The notes under the pieces: model-generated
What the model was told of the DNA's origin: nothing
Databases searched by the model: none
What the model saw: the letters and a program-made list of their open reading frames with translations, nothing else
Program-made: the position numbers and the translations under genes
Assembly (NCBI RefSeq): GCF_016862635.1
Contig: NZ_BONI01000081.1
Location: 1-41,534 of the forward strand
Source: Catellatospora coxensis
GTDB lineage: Bacteria; Actinomycetota; Actinomycetes; Mycobacteriales; Micromonosporaceae
Length of the DNA stretch: 41,534 nucleotides
Direction of reading: 5' to 3'
In this document: positions 32,215 through 39,535 of the stretch, piece by piece
Layout: each line of letters opens with the position of its first letter
Position numbering within the stretch: the first letter of the stretch is position 1

Positions 32215-34644
32215 TCAGATCTTCTCGATCGGGGCGTGGCGCAGGACCAGCCAGAGGACCTGGTCGCCGAAGTCGACCTGGACCTGGGCGCGGGCTCCGG
32301 CGCCCTGCACGGCGAGCACCCGGCCCAGCCCGTAGCGCTGATGGTTGACCCGGTCGCCGGCCGACAGCGACGGCGCGGCGGCCAGGTCGCTGGCGGTGGC
32401 CAGCTTGCTCGGGTCGATGCCGATCTTGCTGGCGAGCGCCGCCGCGCGGGCGGTGCCGCCGACGAAACCGCCGCTGCCCCGCTCCTGGGCCCGCTCGCGG
32501 CCGCCGATACCGCCGCCGCGCGAACCCCAGGAGGTGTACGCCCCCTCGGTGCGGTGCCAGTCGAGCAGCTCCGGCGGCAGCTCCTCCAGGAAGCGCGACG
32601 CCGGGTTGTACTGCGGCTGCCCCCACGCCGAGCGGGTGACCGCCCGGGACAGGTAGAGCCGGCGGCGGGCGCGGGTAATGCCGACGTAGGCCAGCCGCCG
32701 CTCCTCCTCCAGCTCCTTGACCTCGCCCAGCGAGCGCAGGTGCGGGAAGACCCCGTCCTCCAGGCCGGTGAGGAAGACCACCGGGAACTCCAGGCCCTTG
32801 GCGGTGTGCAGGGTCATCAGCGTGACCACGCCCTGGTGCTCCGGGTCGTCGGAGGGCACCTGGTCGGCGTCGGCCACCAGCGCGACCTGCTCCAGGAAAC
32901 CGGCCAGGGTCGGCGTCTCGTCGGCCGCCGCGGTGCGCTCGGCGTACTCCCGGGCCACGCTGACGAGTTCCTGGAGGTTCTCCACCCGGCCCTCGTCCTG
33001 CGGGTCGAGGCTCGCCTCCAGCTCCGACAGCAGGCCGGACTCGGTGAGCAGCAGCTCCAGCACCTGCTCCGGCGGCGCGGTGCGGGCCAGCTCGCGGGCG
33101 GCGTCCATCATCGTGAGGAACTCGCCGATCGAGTTGACCGCGCGGGTCGAGATGCCCGGCGCGTCCGCGGCCCGCCGCAGCGCCGCTCCGAAGGAGACGC
33201 GGTCGCGGGCGGCCAGCGCCTCCACCACGGCCTCGGCACGGTCGCCGAGCCCGCGCTTGGGCGTGTTGATGATCCGGCGCATGCTGACCGTGTCGTCCTC
33301 GTTGGACACCGCGCGCAGGTAGGCCAGCGCGTCGCGGACCTCCTTGCGCTCGTAGAAGCGCACCCCGCCGACGACCTTGTAGGGCAGGCCGAGCCGGATG
33401 AAGATGTCCTCGAAGACCCGGGACTGCGCGTTGGTGCGGTAGAACACCGCGACGTCGCCCGGCCGCGCCGACTCGGCGTCGGTGAGCCGGTCGATCTCGC
33501 GCGCCACCCAGTCGGCCTCGGCGTGCTCGTTGTCGGCGACGTACCCGACGATCTGCTCGCCCGCGCCCTGGTCGCTCCACAGGCGCTTGGGCTTGCGGTC
33601 GCTGTTGCGGTCGATCACGGAGTTGGCGGCGGACAGGATCGTCTGCGTCGAGCGGTAGTTCTGCTCCAGCAGGATGGTGCGCGCCTGCGGGTAGTCCCGC
33701 TCGAACTCCAGGATGTTGCGGATCGTCGCGCCGCGGAACGCGTAGATCGACTGGTCCGCGTCACCCACCACGCACAGCTCGCCGGTGTCCCCGACCAGCT
33801 CCTTGACCAGCACGTACTGCGCGTGGTTGGTGTCCTGGTACTCATCGACCAGGACGTGCCGGAAGCGCCGCCGGTATTTCTCGGTCACCTCGGGCTTGGC
33901 CTGCAGCAGGTGCACGGTGCGCATGATGATGTCGTCGAAGTCGAGCGCCTGAGCCTGCTGCAGCCGCTGCTGATAGAGCGTGTACGCCTCGGCGAGCACC
34001 CGCTCGGCGGGGCCGTGCGGCGTGAACGCCTCGGGGTCGACCAGCTCGTTCTTCAGGTTCGACACCTGCGCGGCGAGGCTGCGCGGCGGGTAGCGTTTGG
34101 GGTCGAGGTCCAGCTCGCGCGCGACCAGCTGCATCAGCCGGCGCGAGTCGTCCGCGTCGTAGATCGAGAAGGACGACTTGAGGCCGGCGTGCTCGTGCTC
34201 CGCGCGCAGGATGCGCAGGCAGGCCGAGTGGAACGTGGACACCCACATCATCCGGGCCCGGTTGCCGACCTGCGCGGCGACCCGTTCGCGCAGCTCGCCC
34301 GCGGCCTTGTTGGTGAACGTGATGGCCAGGATCTCGCCGGGGTGCACGCCCCGGGCGGCCAGCAGGTAGGCGATGCGCTGGGTGAGCACCCGGGTCTTGC
34401 CGGAGCCGGCGCCGGCGACGATCAGCAGCGGGGTGCCCTCGTGGGTGACGGCCGCCCGCTGGGGCTCGTTGAGGCCCTCCAGGAGCGCCGCTATGCGGGG
34501 GCCGGACTCGGTGGGGGCGCGGTCGCCCTGGGACGGCCAAGAGCCGCCAGAGGCCTTCTCGGCGGGCGGTTTCGCGGTGGCGGGCCTCCCCCCGGGCGTC
34601 GTCTCGGACGGCGTCATCTCGGGGAGATCGAAGAGCGCATGCAT
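32215..34644 (-). CDS. pcrA: ATP-dependent DNA helicase UvrD1/PcrA
   Basis: 809 residues. A superfamily 1A 3'-5' helicase for nucleotide-excision repair and removal of proteins from DNA. Q-motif LNEPQRAAV (58-66), Walker A AGAGSGKT (77-84), Ia ITFTNKAAGEL, II VLVDEYQDTN, III GDADQSIYAFRGA, IV QNYRS, V TLMTLHTAKGLEFPVVFLTG, VI YVGITRARRRLYL are all present. A Gly/Arg-rich linker leads to a C-terminal Tudor-like segment (AGDRVNHQRYGLGRVLAVQG...VDFGDQVLWLVLRHAPIEKI), which in UvrD1/PcrA contacts RNA polymerase or Ku. A 50-residue disordered N-terminus is extra. ATG 34644 follows TAGACT by 9 bases: leaderless. Same place as Rv0949 relative to chorismate mutase. Confidence 0.97.
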   Translation of the reverse strand: MHALFDLPEMTPSETTPGGRPATAKPPAEKASGGSWPSQGDRAPTESGPRIAALLEGLNEPQRAAVTHEGTPLLIVAGAGSGKTRVLTQRIAYLLAARGVHPGEILAITFTNKAAGELRERVAAQVGNRARMMWVSTFHSACLRILRAEHEHAGLKSSFSIYDADDSRRLMQLVARELDLDPKRYPPRSLAAQVSNLKNELVDPEAFTPHGPAERVLAEAYTLYQQRLQQAQALDFDDIIMRTVHLLQAKPEVTEKYRRRFRHVLVDEYQDTNHAQYVLVKELVGDTGELCVVGDADQSIYAFRGATIRNILEFERDYPQARTILLEQNYRSTQTILSAANSVIDRNSDRKPKRLWSDQGAGEQIVGYVADNEHAEADWVAREIDRLTDAESARPGDVAVFYRTNAQSRVFEDIFIRLGLPYKVVGGVRFYERKEVRDALAYLRAVSNEDDTVSMRRIINTPKRGLGDRAEAVVEALAARDRVSFGAALRRAADAPGISTRAVNSIGEFLTMMDAARELARTAPPEQVLELLLTESGLLSELEASLDPQDEGRVENLQELVSVAREYAERTAAADETPTLAGFLEQVALVADADQVPSDDPEHQGVVTLMTLHTAKGLEFPVVFLTGLEDGVFPHLRSLGEVKELEEERRLAYVGITRARRRLYLSRAVTRSAWGQPQYNPASRFLEELPPELLDWHRTEGAYTSWGSRGGGIGGRERAQERGSGGFVGGTARAAALASKIGIDPSKLATASDLAAAPSLSAGDRVNHQRYGLGRVLAVQGAGARAQVQVDFGDQVLWLVLRHAPIEKI

Positions 34645-34653
34645 CGTCTGGAG

Positions 34654-34659
34654 AGTCTA
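34654..34659 (-). promoter_or_regulatory. -10 box (TAGACT) of leaderless uvrD1
   Basis: On minus, TAGACT is a near-consensus TANNNT box ending 9 bases before ATG 34644, with no ribosome site. The 188-bp gap also serves the divergent 5'-nucleotidase gene. Confidence 0.55.
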
Positions 34660-34832
34660 TGCGCCCCCACCGACATCGACCCAGCCCGCCACCGATGAGC
34701 GTGAAACCGGCCCGTAGCGAGACGGTCGTGCAGGTGTCACCGATGGGCTGTGGCGCGGCGGAAACGCATACGCAAGGATGCCTTCATAAATCATCGCGCA
34801 CCCCCGCGCGATGCCGACTCTGGAGGCCCCCC

Positions 34833-36677
34833 ATGAATCACCCCCGTTCTCGGGGCTGGGCAGGCACGATGCGGCACCTGGCGCTACCGGCGCTGGCACT
34901 GGCCGTAGTGGCGACGATCCCGCTGAGCAGCGGATCGAGCGCCTCTTCCACCCCGGCGTGGAACCCCCTCACGCCCGTGTCGGTGAACATGGCCGCGGCG
35001 GCTCCGGCCGACCACACGGCGTACGGCAACCTTCTCGCGTTCAACGACTTCCACGGCGCGATCGACCCGCCGACCGGCAGCGGCGCGGCGGTGCTGGGCA
35101 CCCCCGCGGGCGGTGTCGAATACCTGGCCCACTGGGTCAAGAAGCTGCGTGCCGAGGGCGAGGCGGCCGGCCAGGAGGTCGTCACCGTCGGCGCGGGCGA
35201 CATGATCGGCGCCACCCCGCTGGTCAGCGCGGCGTTCCACGACGAGCCCAGCATCGAGCTGCTCAGCGAGCTCGGCCTGGACGTCAGCTCGGTCGGCAAC
35301 CACGAGTTCGACGAGGGCGTCACCGAGCTCAAGCGCATGCAGCACGGCGGCTGCCACCCGGTCGAGGGCTGCTTCGCCGGCGACGGCTTCGACGGCGCGG
35401 AGTTCCAGTACCTCGCCGCGAACGTCACCGACAAGCGCACCAAGCTGCCCATCCTGCCGCCGGTCGACGTGAAGATCATCGACGGCGTGCCGGTCGGCTT
35501 CATCGGCATGACGCTGGAGGGCACCCCGGGCATCGTGAACCCGGCGGGCATCACCACGGTCGACTTCCGCGACGAGATCGAGACCGCGAACCTGTGGAGC
35601 GGCCTGCTCCGCCTGCTCGGCGTCAAGGCGCAGGTGCTGCTGCTGCACGAGGGCGGCCAGCAGGGCGCCACCGGCAACGTCTCCACCTGTGACGGGTTCA
35701 CCGGCGTGATCTCCCCGATCGTGGCCGGCCTGCGCGACGAGATCGGCGTCGTGGTCTCCGGCCACACCCACCGCTTCTACTCGTGCCAGCTGCCCAACAA
35801 GTCGGGCAAGCCCGTCGTCGTCACCAGCGCAGGCACCAACGGCCAGCTGGTCACCGACATCACGCTGACCATGGACCGGCGCAGCCGCACCTTCACCTCG
35901 ATCGAGGCGCACAACGTCGTGACCGAGAACGGTGTGCGCAACGCCGACGGCACCTGGCAGACCACCGCACCCGGCGTGTTCGTGCGCAACCCCGCGCTGG
36001 TCGACCCGGCCGCCAAGGCGATCGCGGACAAGTACCGCACCGCCGTCGCGCCGCTGGCCAACCGGGTCGTCGGTAGCATCTCCGCCGACATCGTGCGCGA
36101 CGTGCAGCCCAGCGGGGAGAGCCCGCTCGGCGACGTCATCGCCGACGCCCAGCTGGCTTACACCGCCTCCGCCGGGGCGCAGCTCGCGCTGATGAACCCG
36201 GGCGGCATCCGGGCGCCGCTCACCTTCGCGAACTCGCCCGGTGGCGAGCCCGCGGGCCAGGTCACGTACGGCGAGGCGTTCACCGTCCAGCCGTTCAACA
36301 ACCTGGTGGTGACCTACTCGCTGACCGGGGCGCAGCTCGACGCGGTGCTGGAGCAGCAGTTCGCCGGCCACGCCGGGCAGAACACCACCAAGATCCTGCA
36401 GATCTCGGCGGGCTTCGCGTACTCGTACGACAGCACCCTGCCGCTCGGCAGCCGGGTCTCCGGCCTGACGCTGAACGGCACGCCGATCGACCCGGCGGCG
36501 ACCTACAAGGTCACCACGAACGACTTCCTGGCCAACGGCGGCGACAACTTCACGGCGCTGACCGCGGGCACGGGCCGGGTCTACGCGCCCGGTTTCGACG
36601 TCGACGCGCTGGTGGCGCACCTGGCCACCGGCCCGGTCACCCCGGGGCCGGCCAATCGCATCACCAAGCTCGGCTGA
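34833..36677 (+). CDS. Secreted 5'-nucleotidase (UshA-like bifunctional metallophosphatase)
   Basis: 614 residues from ATG 34833, with TGGAGG 6 bases upstream; the frame is open to 34659 without a start signal. The N-terminus has Arg residues and a hydrophobic helix (about 14-30), a signal peptide probably cut after an Ala/Ser-rich region. The metallophosphatase domain has FNDFHGAID, GAGDMIGATPL, GNHEFDEG and SGHTHRFY metal-ligand motifs. The C-terminal nucleotide-binding domain has GGIRAPLTF, GEAFTVQPFNNLVV and a late NDFLANGGDNF. It should hydrolyse extracellular nucleotides to nucleosides plus phosphate. No LPxTG or membrane anchor at the C-terminus. It lies between uvrD1 and chorismate mutase, an insertion relative to mycobacteria. 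Confidence 0.94.
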   Translation: MNHPRSRGWAGTMRHLALPALALAVVATIPLSSGSSASSTPAWNPLTPVSVNMAAAAPADHTAYGNLLAFNDFHGAIDPPTGSGAAVLGTPAGGVEYLAHWVKKLRAEGEAAGQEVVTVGAGDMIGATPLVSAAFHDEPSIELLSELGLDVSSVGNHEFDEGVTELKRMQHGGCHPVEGCFAGDGFDGAEFQYLAANVTDKRTKLPILPPVDVKIIDGVPVGFIGMTLEGTPGIVNPAGITTVDFRDEIETANLWSGLLRLLGVKAQVLLLHEGGQQGATGNVSTCDGFTGVISPIVAGLRDEIGVVVSGHTHRFYSCQLPNKSGKPVVVTSAGTNGQLVTDITLTMDRRSRTFTSIEAHNVVTENGVRNADGTWQTTAPGVFVRNPALVDPAAKAIADKYRTAVAPLANRVVGSISADIVRDVQPSGESPLGDVIADAQLAYTASAGAQLALMNPGGIRAPLTFANSPGGEPAGQVTYGEAFTVQPFNNLVVTYSLTGAQLDAVLEQQFAGHAGQNTTKILQISAGFAYSYDSTLPLGSRVSGLTLNGTPIDPAATYKVTTNDFLANGGDNFTALTAGTGRVYAPGFDVDALVAHLATGPVTPGPANRITKLG

Positions 36678-36721
36678 GCGCCGCGCGGATAGATCAAGGT
36701 CTCACATGATGGTCGACGTGC

Positions 36722-36749
36722 TTGCGTGGCGAGGTATCCATGGCATACT
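36722..36749 (+). promoter_or_regulatory. Promoter of the chorismate mutase leader
   Basis: TTGCGT (36722-36727), a 16-base spacer and CATACT (36744-36749) form a good vegetative promoter. Initiation 7-8 bases after the -10 box falls on or next to the GTG at 36757. Confidence 0.6.
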
Positions 36750-36756
36750 TGGCAAC

Positions 36757-36822
36757 GTGATCAACCAGGCGTTCTACTTTACCTATGGCTCCGGGAACCC
36801 GGCAGTCGTAGGTCGCGCCTGA
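36757..36822 (+). CDS. Leader peptide with Phe-Tyr-Phe-Thr-Tyr run (attenuator peptide)
   Basis: 21 codons, GTG start, stop TGA. Codons 6-10 read TTC TAC TTT ACC TAT, four aromatic codons of five, including TTT and TAT, which are rare in this GC-rich DNA. It would be translated from the first base or so of the transcript. The terminator hairpin starts 15 bases after its stop, and chorismate mutase starts 98 bases after its stop. The role proposed is sensing Phe/Tyr-tRNA charging by ribosome stalling. A longer in-frame version from ATG 36706 (38 residues) is possible if transcription starts further upstream. Confidence 0.65.
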   Translation: MINQAFYFTYGSGNPAVVGRA

Positions 36823-36836
36823 GCACACAGACCTCA

Positions 36837-36873
36837 CGAAAAGCCCCGGGCTCCCAGAGCCCGGGGCTTTTCG
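36837..36873 (+). terminator. Attenuator-type terminator before chorismate mutase
   Basis: A perfect 17-bp stem (36837-36853 with 36857-36873) with a 3-base CCA loop; the lower stem is AAAA/TTTT, so the right arm ends in TTTT. CCGGG and CCCGG segments inside the leader peptide coding region (36791-36802) can pair either with each other or with the left arm (about 36846-36853), giving rival folds. It could also just end 5'-nucleotidase transcription (stop at 36677). Confidence 0.75.
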
Positions 36874-36920
36874 CCTTGTCCCGGCCACTGGTGAGCGACA
36901 ATCCCACTGAGGAGTCCCAC

Positions 36921-37205
36921 ATGAGCGCCATCGCCCACGAGACCGGCACCACCGCGCCGGAGGCAGCCACCGAGATCACCTCGATGCGGGAGCGCATCGA
37001 CCAGATCGACGCCGCCCTCATCGCGCTGTGGAAGGAGCGTGCCGCGATCTCCCAGCAGGTCGGCAAGACCCGCGTCGCCTCCGGCGGCACCCGCCTGGTG
37101 CTCAGCCGCGAACGCGAGATCATGGACCGCTTCCGCGCCGAACTGGGCCCCGACGGCACCCAGCTCGCCCTCCTCATCCTCCGCGCCGGCCGCGGCCCGC
37201 TGTAA
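36921..37205 (+). CDS. Chorismate mutase, actinobacterial AroQ-delta type
   Basis: 94 residues from ATG 36921; TGAGGAG lies 6 bases upstream, and the frame open from 36726 crosses the terminator, so it is not used. It rearranges chorismate to prephenate, the branch to Phe and Tyr. MRERIDQIDAALIALWKERAAISQQVGKTR begins the first helix, with the active-site Arg and Lys; SGGTRLVLSREREIMDRF and the ending ELGPDGTQLALLILRAGRGPL match M. tuberculosis Rv0948c, whose C-terminal residues dock onto DAHP synthase and raise activity. Intracellular: no signal peptide. Preceded by the Phe/Tyr leader peptide and terminator, so it is probably attenuated by aromatic amino-acid supply. Confidence 0.93.
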   Translation: MSAIAHETGTTAPEAATEITSMRERIDQIDAALIALWKERAAISQQVGKTRVASGGTRLVLSREREIMDRFRAELGPDGTQLALLILRAGRGPL

Positions 37206-37242
37206 CCAGCCGCCCCACCCGCACCAAGGCCCGCCGCGCTTT

Positions 37243-37313
37243 GCAATCGACGTTGGCCTATTACATCGACTGGGCGTAGATCGAATTCGATGAGATAGGC
37301 CAACGTCGATTGC
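37243..37313. repeat. Family B inverted repeat, copy 2
   Basis: 27-base arms (37243-37269 and 37287-37313) pair with two mismatches around a 17-base spacer and contain GACGTTGGCCTATTACATCGA. It lies 37 bases after the chorismate mutase stop, again in a convergent gap. Confidence 0.9.
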
Positions 37314-37388
37314 GAGACGGCGGCGGCGGGTCGCACCGGCCCGGTCCGCGCGCCTGTTCCGTGGATCATGGGTTCGGGCGCACATGCA

Positions 37389-37421
37389 CAGGGCACCGCC
37401 CGCTGCGCGGACGGTGCCCTG
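37389..37421. terminator. Hairpin in the chorismate mutase / importer 2 convergent gap
   Basis: A perfect 10-bp stem, 37389-37398 with 37412-37421, 13-base loop. No gene is seen in the 292-bp gap 37206-37497; it holds family B copy 2, this hairpin and the next one. Confidence 0.6.
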
Positions 37422-37433
37422 CTCTATGTTGAC

Positions 37434-37488
37434 CCGGTGGCGGGCGGTCCGGCCGGAGGCTCAACCCCACCTGACCGTTCGCCACCGG
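37434..37488 (-). terminator. Probable terminator of importer 2 operon
   Basis: 16-base arms (37434-37449 with 37473-37488) pair with two G-T wobbles, starting 9 bases after the stop of the minus-strand OppF-type gene. Confidence 0.55.
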
Positions 37489-37497
37489 GAGACACTC

Positions 37498-38505
37498 CTA
37501 CCCCGCGTGCACCACGTCCCGCTCCTGCGCGAAGTGGCAAGCGCTCGGGTGCCCCGAGGTGGGGCGGATCTGCAGCAGCGGCGTCTCCGTCGCGCAGATC
37601 TCCTGGGCCTTCCAGCACCGGGTGCGGAAACGGCAGCCCGACGGCGGGTTGGCCGGCGACGGGACGTCGCCCTCCAGCCGGATGACCGCCTTGCGCTGAC
37701 GCGCCGTCGGGTCCGGCACCGGCACCGCGGACAGCAGAGCCTGCGTGTACGGGTGGGTCGGCCGCACGTAGATGTCGTCGTCCGTGCCGACCTCGACCAT
37801 CTTGCCGAGGTACATCACACCGACGCGGTCGGCGATGTGGCGCACCACCGACAGGTCGTGCGCGATGAAGATGTACGACAGGTTGAATTCCGTCTGGAGC
37901 TGGTCCAGCAGGTTCATGACCTGTGCCTGGATCGACACGTCGAGTGCCGACACGGGCTCGTCGCAGACGATGACCTCCGGCTTGAGCGCCAGGGCCCGGG
38001 CGATGCCGATGCGCTGGCGCTGACCGCCGGAGAACTGGTGCGGGTACCGGTTGATGTGCTCGGGGTTGAGACCGACCACGTCGAGCAGTTCCTGCACCTT
38101 GCGCCGCCGGTCGCCCTTGGGCGCGGCGTCGGGGTGGATCTCGAAAGGCTCCCCGACGATGTCGCCCACGGTCATTCGCGGGTTGAGCGAGGTGTACGGG
38201 TCCTGCATGACCAGCTGGATGTTGCGGCGCAGCTTGCGCTGCTCCGCCGGGCTGAGCCGCAGCACGTCCCGGCCCTGGTAGCGCACCTCGCCCGAGGTGG
38301 GCTTCTCCAGGTTCATCAGCAGCTTGGCCAGCGTCGACTTGCCGCAGCCCGACTCGCCGACGATGCCCAGGGTCTCACCCTTGTGCAGGTCGAGCGAGAC
38401 GCCGTCGACCGCCTTGATCTGCCCGATGGTGCGTTTGAAGACGATGCCCTGGCGGATCGGGAAGTGCTTGACCAGGTCGCGTACTTCGAGGATCACTTCA
38501 CTCAC
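37498..38505 (-). CDS. ABC transporter ATP-binding protein, OppF/DppF type (importer 2)
   Basis: 335 residues from GTG 38505, the start that gives an 8-bp overlap with the OppD-type gene and the family N-terminus SEVILEVRDLVKHFPIRQG. Walker [25 protein letters not shown], signature [20 protein letters not shown] and [14 protein letters not shown] are intact, as is the C-terminal [15 protein letters not shown]...SACHFAQE cysteine motif. By eye it is very close to the importer 1 paralogue at 18163-19203, including the KHFPI and FK-x-T-x-G-x-I-KAVDG insert. Last gene of the minus-strand operon. Confidence 0.95.
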   Translation of the reverse strand: MSEVILEVRDLVKHFPIRQGIVFKRTIGQIKAVDGVSLDLHKGETLGIVGESGCGKSTLAKLLMNLEKPTSGEVRYQGRDVLRLSPAEQRKLRRNIQLVMQDPYTSLNPRMTVGDIVGEPFEIHPDAAPKGDRRRKVQELLDVVGLNPEHINRYPHQFSGGQRQRIGIARALALKPEVIVCDEPVSALDVSIQAQVMNLLDQLQTEFNLSYIFIAHDLSVVRHIADRVGVMYLGKMVEVGTDDDIYVRPTHPYTQALLSAVPVPDPTARQRKAVIRLEGDVPSPANPPSGCRFRTRCWKAQEICATETPLLQIRPTSGHPSACHFAQERDVVHAG

Positions 38506-39535
38506 GGCCGTACAGCTCCTCTGCGAAGTGACAGGCACTGGCCCGGACGCCGCCCAGCTCGACCAGCGCGGGGCGCTCGGCCGAACAGATGTCCTTCGCC
38601 ATCCGGCACCGCGGGTGGAACGCGCAGCCCGAGGGGATGCGCAGCAGGTTGGGCGGCAGGCCCTTGATGGTGTTGAGCTCCTGGCCCTTGAGGTCCAGGC
38701 GCGGCAGCGAGTCCAGCAGGGCCAGCGTGTACGGGTGGCAGGGCTTGCCGTACAGCGCGTGCACGTCGGCCTGCTCCACGATCCGGCCCGCGTACATGAC
38801 CGCGATCCGGTCCGCGACGTCGGCGACCACGCCGAGGTCGTGGGTGATCAGGATCATGCCCATGTTCCGGTCGCGGCGGATCTCCGCCAGCAGGTCCATG
38901 ATCTGGGCCTGCACCGTCACGTCGAGCGCCGTGGTGGGCTCGTCCGCGATCAGCACCTCGGGGTCCAGCGCCAGCGCCATGGCGATCATGACGCGCTGGC
39001 GCATGCCGCCGGAGAACTGGTGCGGGAAGTCCTTCAGGCGCGTCTTCGCCGCCGGGATCTTGACCAGGTCCAGCAGCTCCGTGGCGCGCTTGTACCCGTC
39101 GGCGCGGCTCATGCCCCGCCGCTTGCGGAACAGCTCGGCGATCTGGAACCCGACCGTGAAGACCGGGTTCAGCGCCGAGAGCGCGTCCTGGAACACCATC
39201 GCGATGCCCTCGCCGCGGACCAGCCGGCGCTCGTCCTTGCCCATGGTGAGCAGGTCCTTGCCGCGGAAGCGGATGGAACCGCCCGTCACGAAGCCCGGCG
39301 GGGTGTCGAGGATGCCCATGATGGTCTGCGCCGTGACGCTCTTGCCGGAGCCGGACTCGCCCAGCACCGCCAGCGTCTCGCCCGCGTCCACGTGGTACGA
39401 CACTCCGTTGATCACCTTCGCGACGCCGTCGCGGGTGCGGAACTCCACGTGGAGGTTCTCGACCTCGAGCAGGTGGCCGCCCGAGCGGCCGTCGACGCCC
39501 TGTACCGGCGCCGTCTTCACCTTGATGTCACTCAC
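38498..39535 (-). CDS. ABC transporter ATP-binding protein, OppD/DppD type (importer 2)
   Basis: 345 residues, GTG start with AGGAGAG 5 bases upstream. [46 protein letters not shown] and [14 protein letters not shown] are all there, with the C-terminal [15 protein letters not shown] cysteine motif (likely iron-sulfur or structural, from family knowledge). It is the same length as its importer 1 counterpart and highly similar throughout. It overlaps the OppF-type gene by 8 bases and lies 9 bases after the OppC-type gene. Confidence 0.95.
   Translation of the reverse strand: MSDIKVKTAPVQGVDGRSGGHLLEVENLHVEFRTRDGVAKVINGVSYHVDAGETLAVLGESGSGKSVTAQTIMGILDTPPGFVTGGSIRFRGKDLLTMGKDERRLVRGEGIAMVFQDALSALNPVFTVGFQIAELFRKRRGMSRADGYKRATELLDLVKIPAAKTRLKDFPHQFSGGMRQRVMIAMALALDPEVLIADEPTTALDVTVQAQIMDLLAEIRRDRNMGMILITHDLGVVADVADRIAVMYAGRIVEQADVHALYGKPCHPYTLALLDSLPRLDLKGQELNTIKGLPPNLLRIPSGCAFHPRCRMAKDICSAERPALVELGGVRASACHFAEELYGRE

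Follow-up and report, generated by a model that had tools for sequence, protein, structure and literature searches.

In the actinobacterium Corynebacterium glutamicum, the leader of aroF (aroR) encodes Phe-Tyr-Phe (PMC4046766, PMC11802643, both cited from excerpts), and the excerpt of the second paper reports that aroR-aroF responds to Phe and not to Tyr (PMC11802643). Because this aromatic attenuator is already known in actinobacteria, the mechanism considered here is not itself new. In Escherichia coli, the pheL leader controls pheA, which encodes an enzyme containing chorismate mutase (CM), through charged tRNA-Phe, according to the same excerpt (PMC11802643). In Streptomyces lividans, the leader peptides of the trpL, leuL and ilvL attenuators are described in the cited part of PMC8079986 as being transcribed leaderless, and the words chorismate, phenylalanine and tyrosine do not occur in the main text of that paper. 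A 2019 survey of five low-GC genomes, its cited section naming HIMB5, Clostridium novyi, T. lienii, Arcobacter and B. cicadellinicola among them, gives two candidate upstream open reading frames (uORFs) with Phe and Tyr codons before shikimate genes (PMC6429828). The comparative survey of actinobacterial attenuators by Seliverstov et al. in 2005 reports, in the passage cited, having seen none ahead of the Phe and Tyr operons (PMC1262725). Among the open-access papers listed by our searches, we found no description of a CM attenuator in actinobacteria, and a word search for chorismate returned no mention in PMC2864571, PMC2965389, PMC10272879, PMC8269248, PMC13236596 or PMC4833913.

Against this background, we examined a 41,534-nucleotide stretch of Catellatospora coxensis DNA (contig NZ_BONI01000081.1, positions 1 to 41,534; hereafter the window), for which an original prediction had proposed an aromatic amino acid attenuator in front of a CM gene. 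The observation of a leader in front of CM is confirmed as real. All of its features lie on the plus strand. A -35-like TTGCGT (36722..36727) and a -10 box CATACT (36744..36749), separated by a 16-nt spacer and followed after 7 nt by a GTG at 36757, point at the leader where the original prediction had placed them. Strict consensus promoter and terminator scans of the window returned nothing at the leader, and TTGCGT is a poor match to the -35 consensus, so the promoter call rests on conservation, which backs it. The GTG opens a 21-codon leader-peptide reading frame, MINQAFYFTYGSGNPAVVGRA (36757..36822, GTG to TGA), which is predicted to be leaderless from its sequence and its conservation in the host family. 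It begins GTG ATC AAC CAG GCG TTC TAC TTT ACC TAT, and the putative regulatory codons TTC TAC TTT ACC TAT (Phe Tyr Phe Thr Tyr; 36772..36786) confirm the peptide that had been read from the DNA. CATACT-N7-GTG occurs once in the window against 0.08 expected, and a leaderless-like short reading frame with at least four F/Y in seven residues occurs once in the window and in 0 of 60 simulated windows.

The downstream part of the leader is predicted to form alternative structures. Hairpin 1, the putative protector (36781..36813; from folding and alignment), has the last Tyr codon in its left arm, while its right arm is part of an antiterminator. The outer arm of this antiterminator, GGGAACCCGG (36793..36802), is complementary at 9 of 10 positions to 36846-36855, as covariation and folding indicate, and its inner stem (36806..36839) has the conserved core GTAGGTC/GACCT in the family alignment and in the fold with a ribosome at Tyr10. 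The terminator hairpin (36837..36873) has 17 bp and a CCA loop. The 17-bp hairpin of the original prediction is present, but the T-run said to end it is no longer than TTTT and lies inside the stem, within the right arm, and the terminator scan was silent. Folding of the leader region, a check that had been proposed, gave a z-score of -7.4 against dinucleotide shuffles. A Shine-Dalgarno-like GAGGAG (36909..36914) precedes the CM gene (36921..37205, ATG to TAA), whose product is monofunctional and matches TIGR01808 (85.2 bits) and NF005894 (112 bits), both above cut-off; we take it to be of the AroQ-delta type, in agreement with the earlier label. The closest named relatives of the window's genome are Catellatospora, with 96-99% shared CM protein at loci L002-L006. 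The upstream neighbour is a 5'-nucleotidase-like gene. Two further observations concern this region. A near-perfect inverted repeat, perhaps a repeat element, lies directly 3' of CM (37238-37317), with a sub-threshold Rfam match only (mir-6096) and similar inverted repeats near CM in the relatives L018 and L025. A sub-threshold match to the Rfam family Thr_leader spans 36765-36875 and perhaps reflects a shared attenuator layout.

Comparative sequence evidence and modelled folding make it very probable that this element is a leaderless, ribosome-mediated transcription attenuator, which would couple CM expression to charged tRNA-Phe and tRNA-Tyr. The anatomy of the element, the conservation of its in-frame codons, the covarying positions in hairpin 1 and the antiterminator, and the folding with a simulated ribosome were computed and are shown below; the transcription start, actual termination and the starvation response we infer in the following form. 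Transcription would begin on the GTG or beside it, with a ribosome following RNA polymerase and translating the leader. A ribosome stalled on the Phe and Tyr codons would cover the left arm of hairpin 1, and the freed GGGAACCCGG...GTAGGTC segment would pair with the terminator left arm and with the RNA immediately preceding the terminator, giving read-through into CM. A ribosome that has reached the stop codon would instead cover the inner arm, so that no antiterminator could form and the terminator would fold. When the leader is not translated, hairpin 1 would protect the terminator, at least in the window's own sequence.

We folded the transcript, cut before the terminator right arm, masking the RNA as far as 12 nt downstream of where the A-site codon begins; this describes equilibrium, not kinetics. 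In the window sequence, hairpin 1 formed and leader-terminator pairs were absent when no ribosome was placed, whereas an A-site at any codon from Phe6 to Thr9 gave 9.2 expected leader-terminator pairs and one at Tyr10 gave 5.3. A ribosome at the stop codon again left none. The antiterminator formed with the ribosome at the last Tyr or two codons before it in all 11 sequences folded, the window and L119 among them, and was absent with the ribosome at the stop in all 11. In four of the 11 (L101, L113, L173 and L174) the antiterminator was already favoured without a ribosome, and in two (L030 and L177) the states were divided, so that hairpin 1 cannot be called a general protector under this simple model.

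We then looked for covariation between the competing structures. Among 77 family sequences, hairpin 1 and the terminator together had 98.0% of cells paired and 13 double-changed cells against 2.6 in shuffles; hairpin 1 had 98.5% of cells paired, with changes on both sides in three of its seven pairs, and the terminator 97.7%. The antiterminator, in which the outer leader arm pairs with the terminator left arm and the inner GTAGGTC with GACCTAC, had 90.9% of cells paired in the same 77 sequences (91.5% and 93.9% for helices 2 and 3, which belong to its inner stem). It contained 26 double-changed cells against 7.1 in shuffles, and 0 of 500 shuffles reached 26, kinship among the sequences not being removed from this comparison. 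At the order level, the outer helix had 33 double-changed cells against 16.0 (58 sequences, again with kinship included), and one of its pairs switches between GC (25 sequences) and CG (18 sequences). Counted as pairs with double changes, the antiterminator was unexceptional both in the family (6 versus 3.6, reached by 33 of 500 shuffles) and at the order level (4 versus 3.6, reached by 303 of 500). A comparison of cognate with swapped leader-terminator pairing, which does not depend on single alignment columns, agrees with the cell counts: the cognate pairing in the 77 family sequences averaged -19.75 against -17.88 kcal/mol for swapped partners (sd 0.20; 0 of 10,000 permutations; kinship included). 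The difference was also seen in 63 distinct family pairs (-18.70 versus -16.80) and in the 58 order-level sequences (-17.77 versus -14.88). In 19 of the 77 family sequences, L110 being the most extreme, the own terminator paired more weakly than the average foreign one. The terminator sequence that covaries falls partly within the terminator loop in L101 and L113, where the terminator's own stem therefore cannot explain the covariation. The antiterminator and the terminator are thus mutually exclusive structures that both covary, and the rival pairing between the leader and the terminator left arm, postulated from the single sequence, is borne out by compensating changes in both the family and the order alignments.

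The same leader could act mainly through Rho or through translation of CM rather than through intrinsic termination, and the short U-tract and the silent terminator scan would fit such an outcome, as would the mycobacterial cys leaders that the cited part of PMC1262725 describes as having no obvious terminators. We nevertheless regard this as unlikely, given that the hairpin is kept at the 97.7% level noted above, that its left arm is the antiterminator partner and that 35 nt separate it from the Shine-Dalgarno site of CM downstream. Apart from its weak U-tract, the locus has the computable features of a classical attenuator; its leaderless start is a prediction. A pathway gene, CM, stands directly downstream, and we infer that the leader controls it as in classical attenuation.

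CM is present in 199 of 200 host-family genomes. For the family sample we took one CM locus per genome from 109 genomes, leaving aside a weak match (L124, in G005) and the secondary matches L125 and L126, and a script chose the best F/Y-rich start upstream of CM. A leader reading frame with at least three F/Y in seven residues was found at 108 of the 109 loci. The exception, L022, has lost two of the four aromatic codons and retains Phe-Thr-Tyr only; L004 (Catellatospora vulcania) has the identical leader. Among the 108 positives, L112 has Phe and no Tyr, and in L067 the distance from the leader to the CM match, 516 nt, exceeds that at the other loci. A hairpin kept in the absence of Phe and Tyr codons, which would speak against the proposal, was seen at 0 of 109 loci, L022 having one Phe and one Tyr. 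In 98 distinct leaders, the codons between the start codon and the stem are F/Y in 318 of 935 cases when read in frame; read in the other two frames, the counts are 125 of 837 and 54 of 837. The last Tyr codon lies inside the stem, so its conservation need not reflect coding. The comparison of regions upstream of CM therefore yielded both the conserved in-frame aromatic codons and the compensating stem changes that the original prediction had anticipated, and its interpretation is supported at the level of sequence. As a separate observation, G030 has two CM copies (L112 and L125), both with terminator-like hairpins and atypical leaders, one with three Phe and no Tyr, the other with one Phe and two Tyr in a non-canonical reading frame.

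The promoter-like elements are conserved as well. Among 108 distinct loci chosen because a -10 box could be recognised, the box lies 6 nt from the start codon in 29 and 7 nt in 79, although the script would have accepted 3 to 9 nt. TTG[C/A] at a spacer of 15-19 was found in 80 of the 108 distinct family loci against 3.2 expected from shuffles. With 6-7 nt between -10 box and start codon, a transcription start at the start codon is predicted; transcription and translation starts would then nearly coincide, as had been suggested, and the mRNA should be leaderless, beginning at or next to the start codon of the leader. The Phe codons of the family leaders are mostly TTT (149 of 185 in 98 distinct leaders), and TTT accounts for 0 of the 63 Phe codons in five window genes (32215-39535). 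The use of TTT in the leaders may be a purposeful slowing of the ribosome.

The peptide is well conserved within the host family. At seven family loci (L101, L113 and L119-L123), the frame changes after the aromatic run, and C-termini such as ...RPGRRSR or ...RPSRRSSR replace ...SPAAVGRA; the hairpin and the antiterminator arms persist at these loci, as does a stop codon at nearly the same position. This speaks for the RNA, and not the C-terminal peptide, as the conserved object.

To define the reach of the element, we searched more widely with covariance models. At the order level, model R1 with strict filters found matches at E <=0.001 in 293 of 397 genomes. We took 40 order-level matches, 39 of them outside the family, mostly one per genus and from the top of the list. 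All 40 were followed by a CM match 153-263 nt after the start of the R1 match, and all 40 had a short reading frame with Phe and Tyr codons whose start was no more than 6 nt from model position 1. Applied to the window's own genome, R1 gave one real match, its palindromic reverse strand and seven weak matches (E >=0.11). These data bear on an alternative in which the hairpin serves only to end transcription of the upstream 5'-nucleotidase-like gene and the short reading frame has arisen by chance. That gene is on the same strand and ends at 36677, as would suit such a terminator, but a reading frame and a -10 box that separate the hairpin from the upstream stop and are conserved at 108 of the 109 family CM loci, leader arms that covary with the terminator, and order-level matches that in 40 of 40 cases precede CM make the idea very improbable.

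Model R2 matched 89 of 394 genomes of the class, and of the 20 matches taken at this level, 11 stand before CM, 8 before DAHP synthase and 1 before neither. In family f31, 43 of 61 genomes matched at E <=0.01, and DAHP synthase lies downstream in 29 of 30 loci. In a broad set, we examined 45 of 58 loci, the other 13 being reverse-strand overlaps or from genomes or genera already covered; 18 of the 45 stand before CM, 13 before DAHP synthase, 1 before a trpE-like gene and 13 before none of these. The last 13 (L302, L304-L310, L327, L332, L334, L335 and L341; E 2e-5 to 0.01) have no CM, DAHP synthase or trpE and are false or unexplained, so R2 is unreliable there. Phylum-wide, R2 matched 30 of 296 genomes at E <=0.001; at this range, it misses true cases and takes in false ones. 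R2 also did not recover the DAHP synthase leader of G211. Second R2 matches in three other genomes (L355-L357) were rejected, as they show no aromatic leader and resemble unrelated hairpins. Example proteins of both kinds, CM and DAHP synthase, score above the NCBIfam cut-offs, and the DAHP synthase assignment of L321 rests on tblastn. In all, the position of CM downstream of the element is kept across 18 families, and DAHP synthase is downstream in 9. No DAHP synthase of this type was found in the window's genome at E <=1e-20. The scope of the original prediction was thus too narrow: the element occurs in other families and classes, and with other codons before another gene. The single match before a trpE-like gene (L339) has the leader MTSLGVSWFWLRGSMSPVSPRA, and the best match of the trpE-like protein, TIGR00564, reaches 482.5 bits, below the cut-off of 517.7. 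This leader is possibly the same element or a converged trp attenuator.

The codons of the leaders follow the gene downstream. CM supplies Phe and Tyr only, whereas DAHP synthase supplies Phe, Tyr and Trp. Omitting near-identical leaders, L112, L125, L222, L243 and false matches, we counted the leaders with Trp: 39 of the 44 before DAHP synthase have it, against 4 of the 173 before CM, and in three of these four it stands apart from the aromatic run (Fisher p 7e-33, with no correction for kinship). Both F and Y are present in all 173 and in all 44, the script having preferred starts that give an aromatic run. The 44 DAHP synthase leaders comprise 31 from f31, with the rest from f10, f22, f41, f66, f67, f69 and f97; the f41 leader has no Trp, and every other family has at least one leader with Trp. 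One genome (G211) carries both kinds, a CM leader without Trp, MVRLTARFFYGSGHPAAVFVV (L167), and a DAHP synthase leader with Trp, MQQRFYFWYGYRPGSPRRLVALH (L343). Cognate pairing of the DAHP synthase antiterminator was weaker in its signal (-19.78 versus -18.89; 49 of 10,000 permutations; 29 sequences).

This matching of codons to gene product also bears on what the reading frame is for. Were it to encode a functional small protein acting in trans, with the RNA structure secondary, its good conservation in the family would follow; that it does so is hard to credit when seven loci have a frame-shifted C-terminus with the RNA arms kept and CM leaders and DAHP synthase leaders have different aromatic runs, each in keeping with the product of the gene that follows. 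A conserved structured RNA before a biosynthetic gene might equally be a ligand-binding riboswitch or a T-box, but this can be set aside almost entirely, because no Rfam family reached its gathering score in 8 loci, the best match in the window (Thr_leader) scored 28.8 bits against a cut-off of 55, and in-frame F/Y codons with gene-matched Trp codons make sense only if the leader is translated.

Returning to translated attenuation as the preferred reading, we consider the chances about even that there is one ancient attenuator, which would have arisen early in Actinomycetota and been kept while moving among DAHP synthase, CM and perhaps trpE. Its codons would have been retuned each time to the end products, Phe/Tyr at CM and Phe/Tyr/Trp at DAHP synthase, and the mostly used, rare TTT would perhaps make a more sensitive sensor. 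Codon content that varies with gene function amounts to a natural experiment on attenuator tuning, and the presence of two leaders in one genome, for CM without Trp and for DAHP synthase with Trp, makes the tuning directly testable. A defined switch for Phe/Tyr flux would be of use to strain engineers. The element is also a candidate for the RNA control of Phe and Tyr genes that the 2005 survey, in the passage cited, did not see in actinobacteria (PMC1262725).

Of the known systems, the aroR-aroF attenuator of C. glutamicum (Neshat et al. 2014, cited through PMC11802643 and PMC4046766) is the closest. It shares with the window's element an actinobacterial host, a Phe-Tyr-Phe leader, an aromatic pathway and a ribosome-mediated mechanism, but stands before the DAHP synthase gene aroF, whereas the window's element stands before CM. 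In the genus g103, possibly Corynebacterium, 41 genomes gave 30 loci; 13 of these were inspected, and none was a real match to the covariance model. The E. coli pheL-pheA system follows the same logic, but pheA encodes a fused CM-prephenate dehydratase and belongs to another phylum. The pheL leader has a ribosome-binding site. The leaders of S. lividans are alike in being leaderless leader peptides in an actinobacterium; the eight listed in the cited part of that study include none for Phe/Tyr, CM or DAHP synthase (PMC8079986). The uORFs of the 2019 survey are alike in their predicted control of aromatic genes by Phe/Tyr codons, but its cited section names no chorismate mutase and gives no actinobacterial example (PMC6429828). 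Compared with these systems, the element described here is classical in mechanism, and unusual in its reach and in codons matched to the gene that follows.
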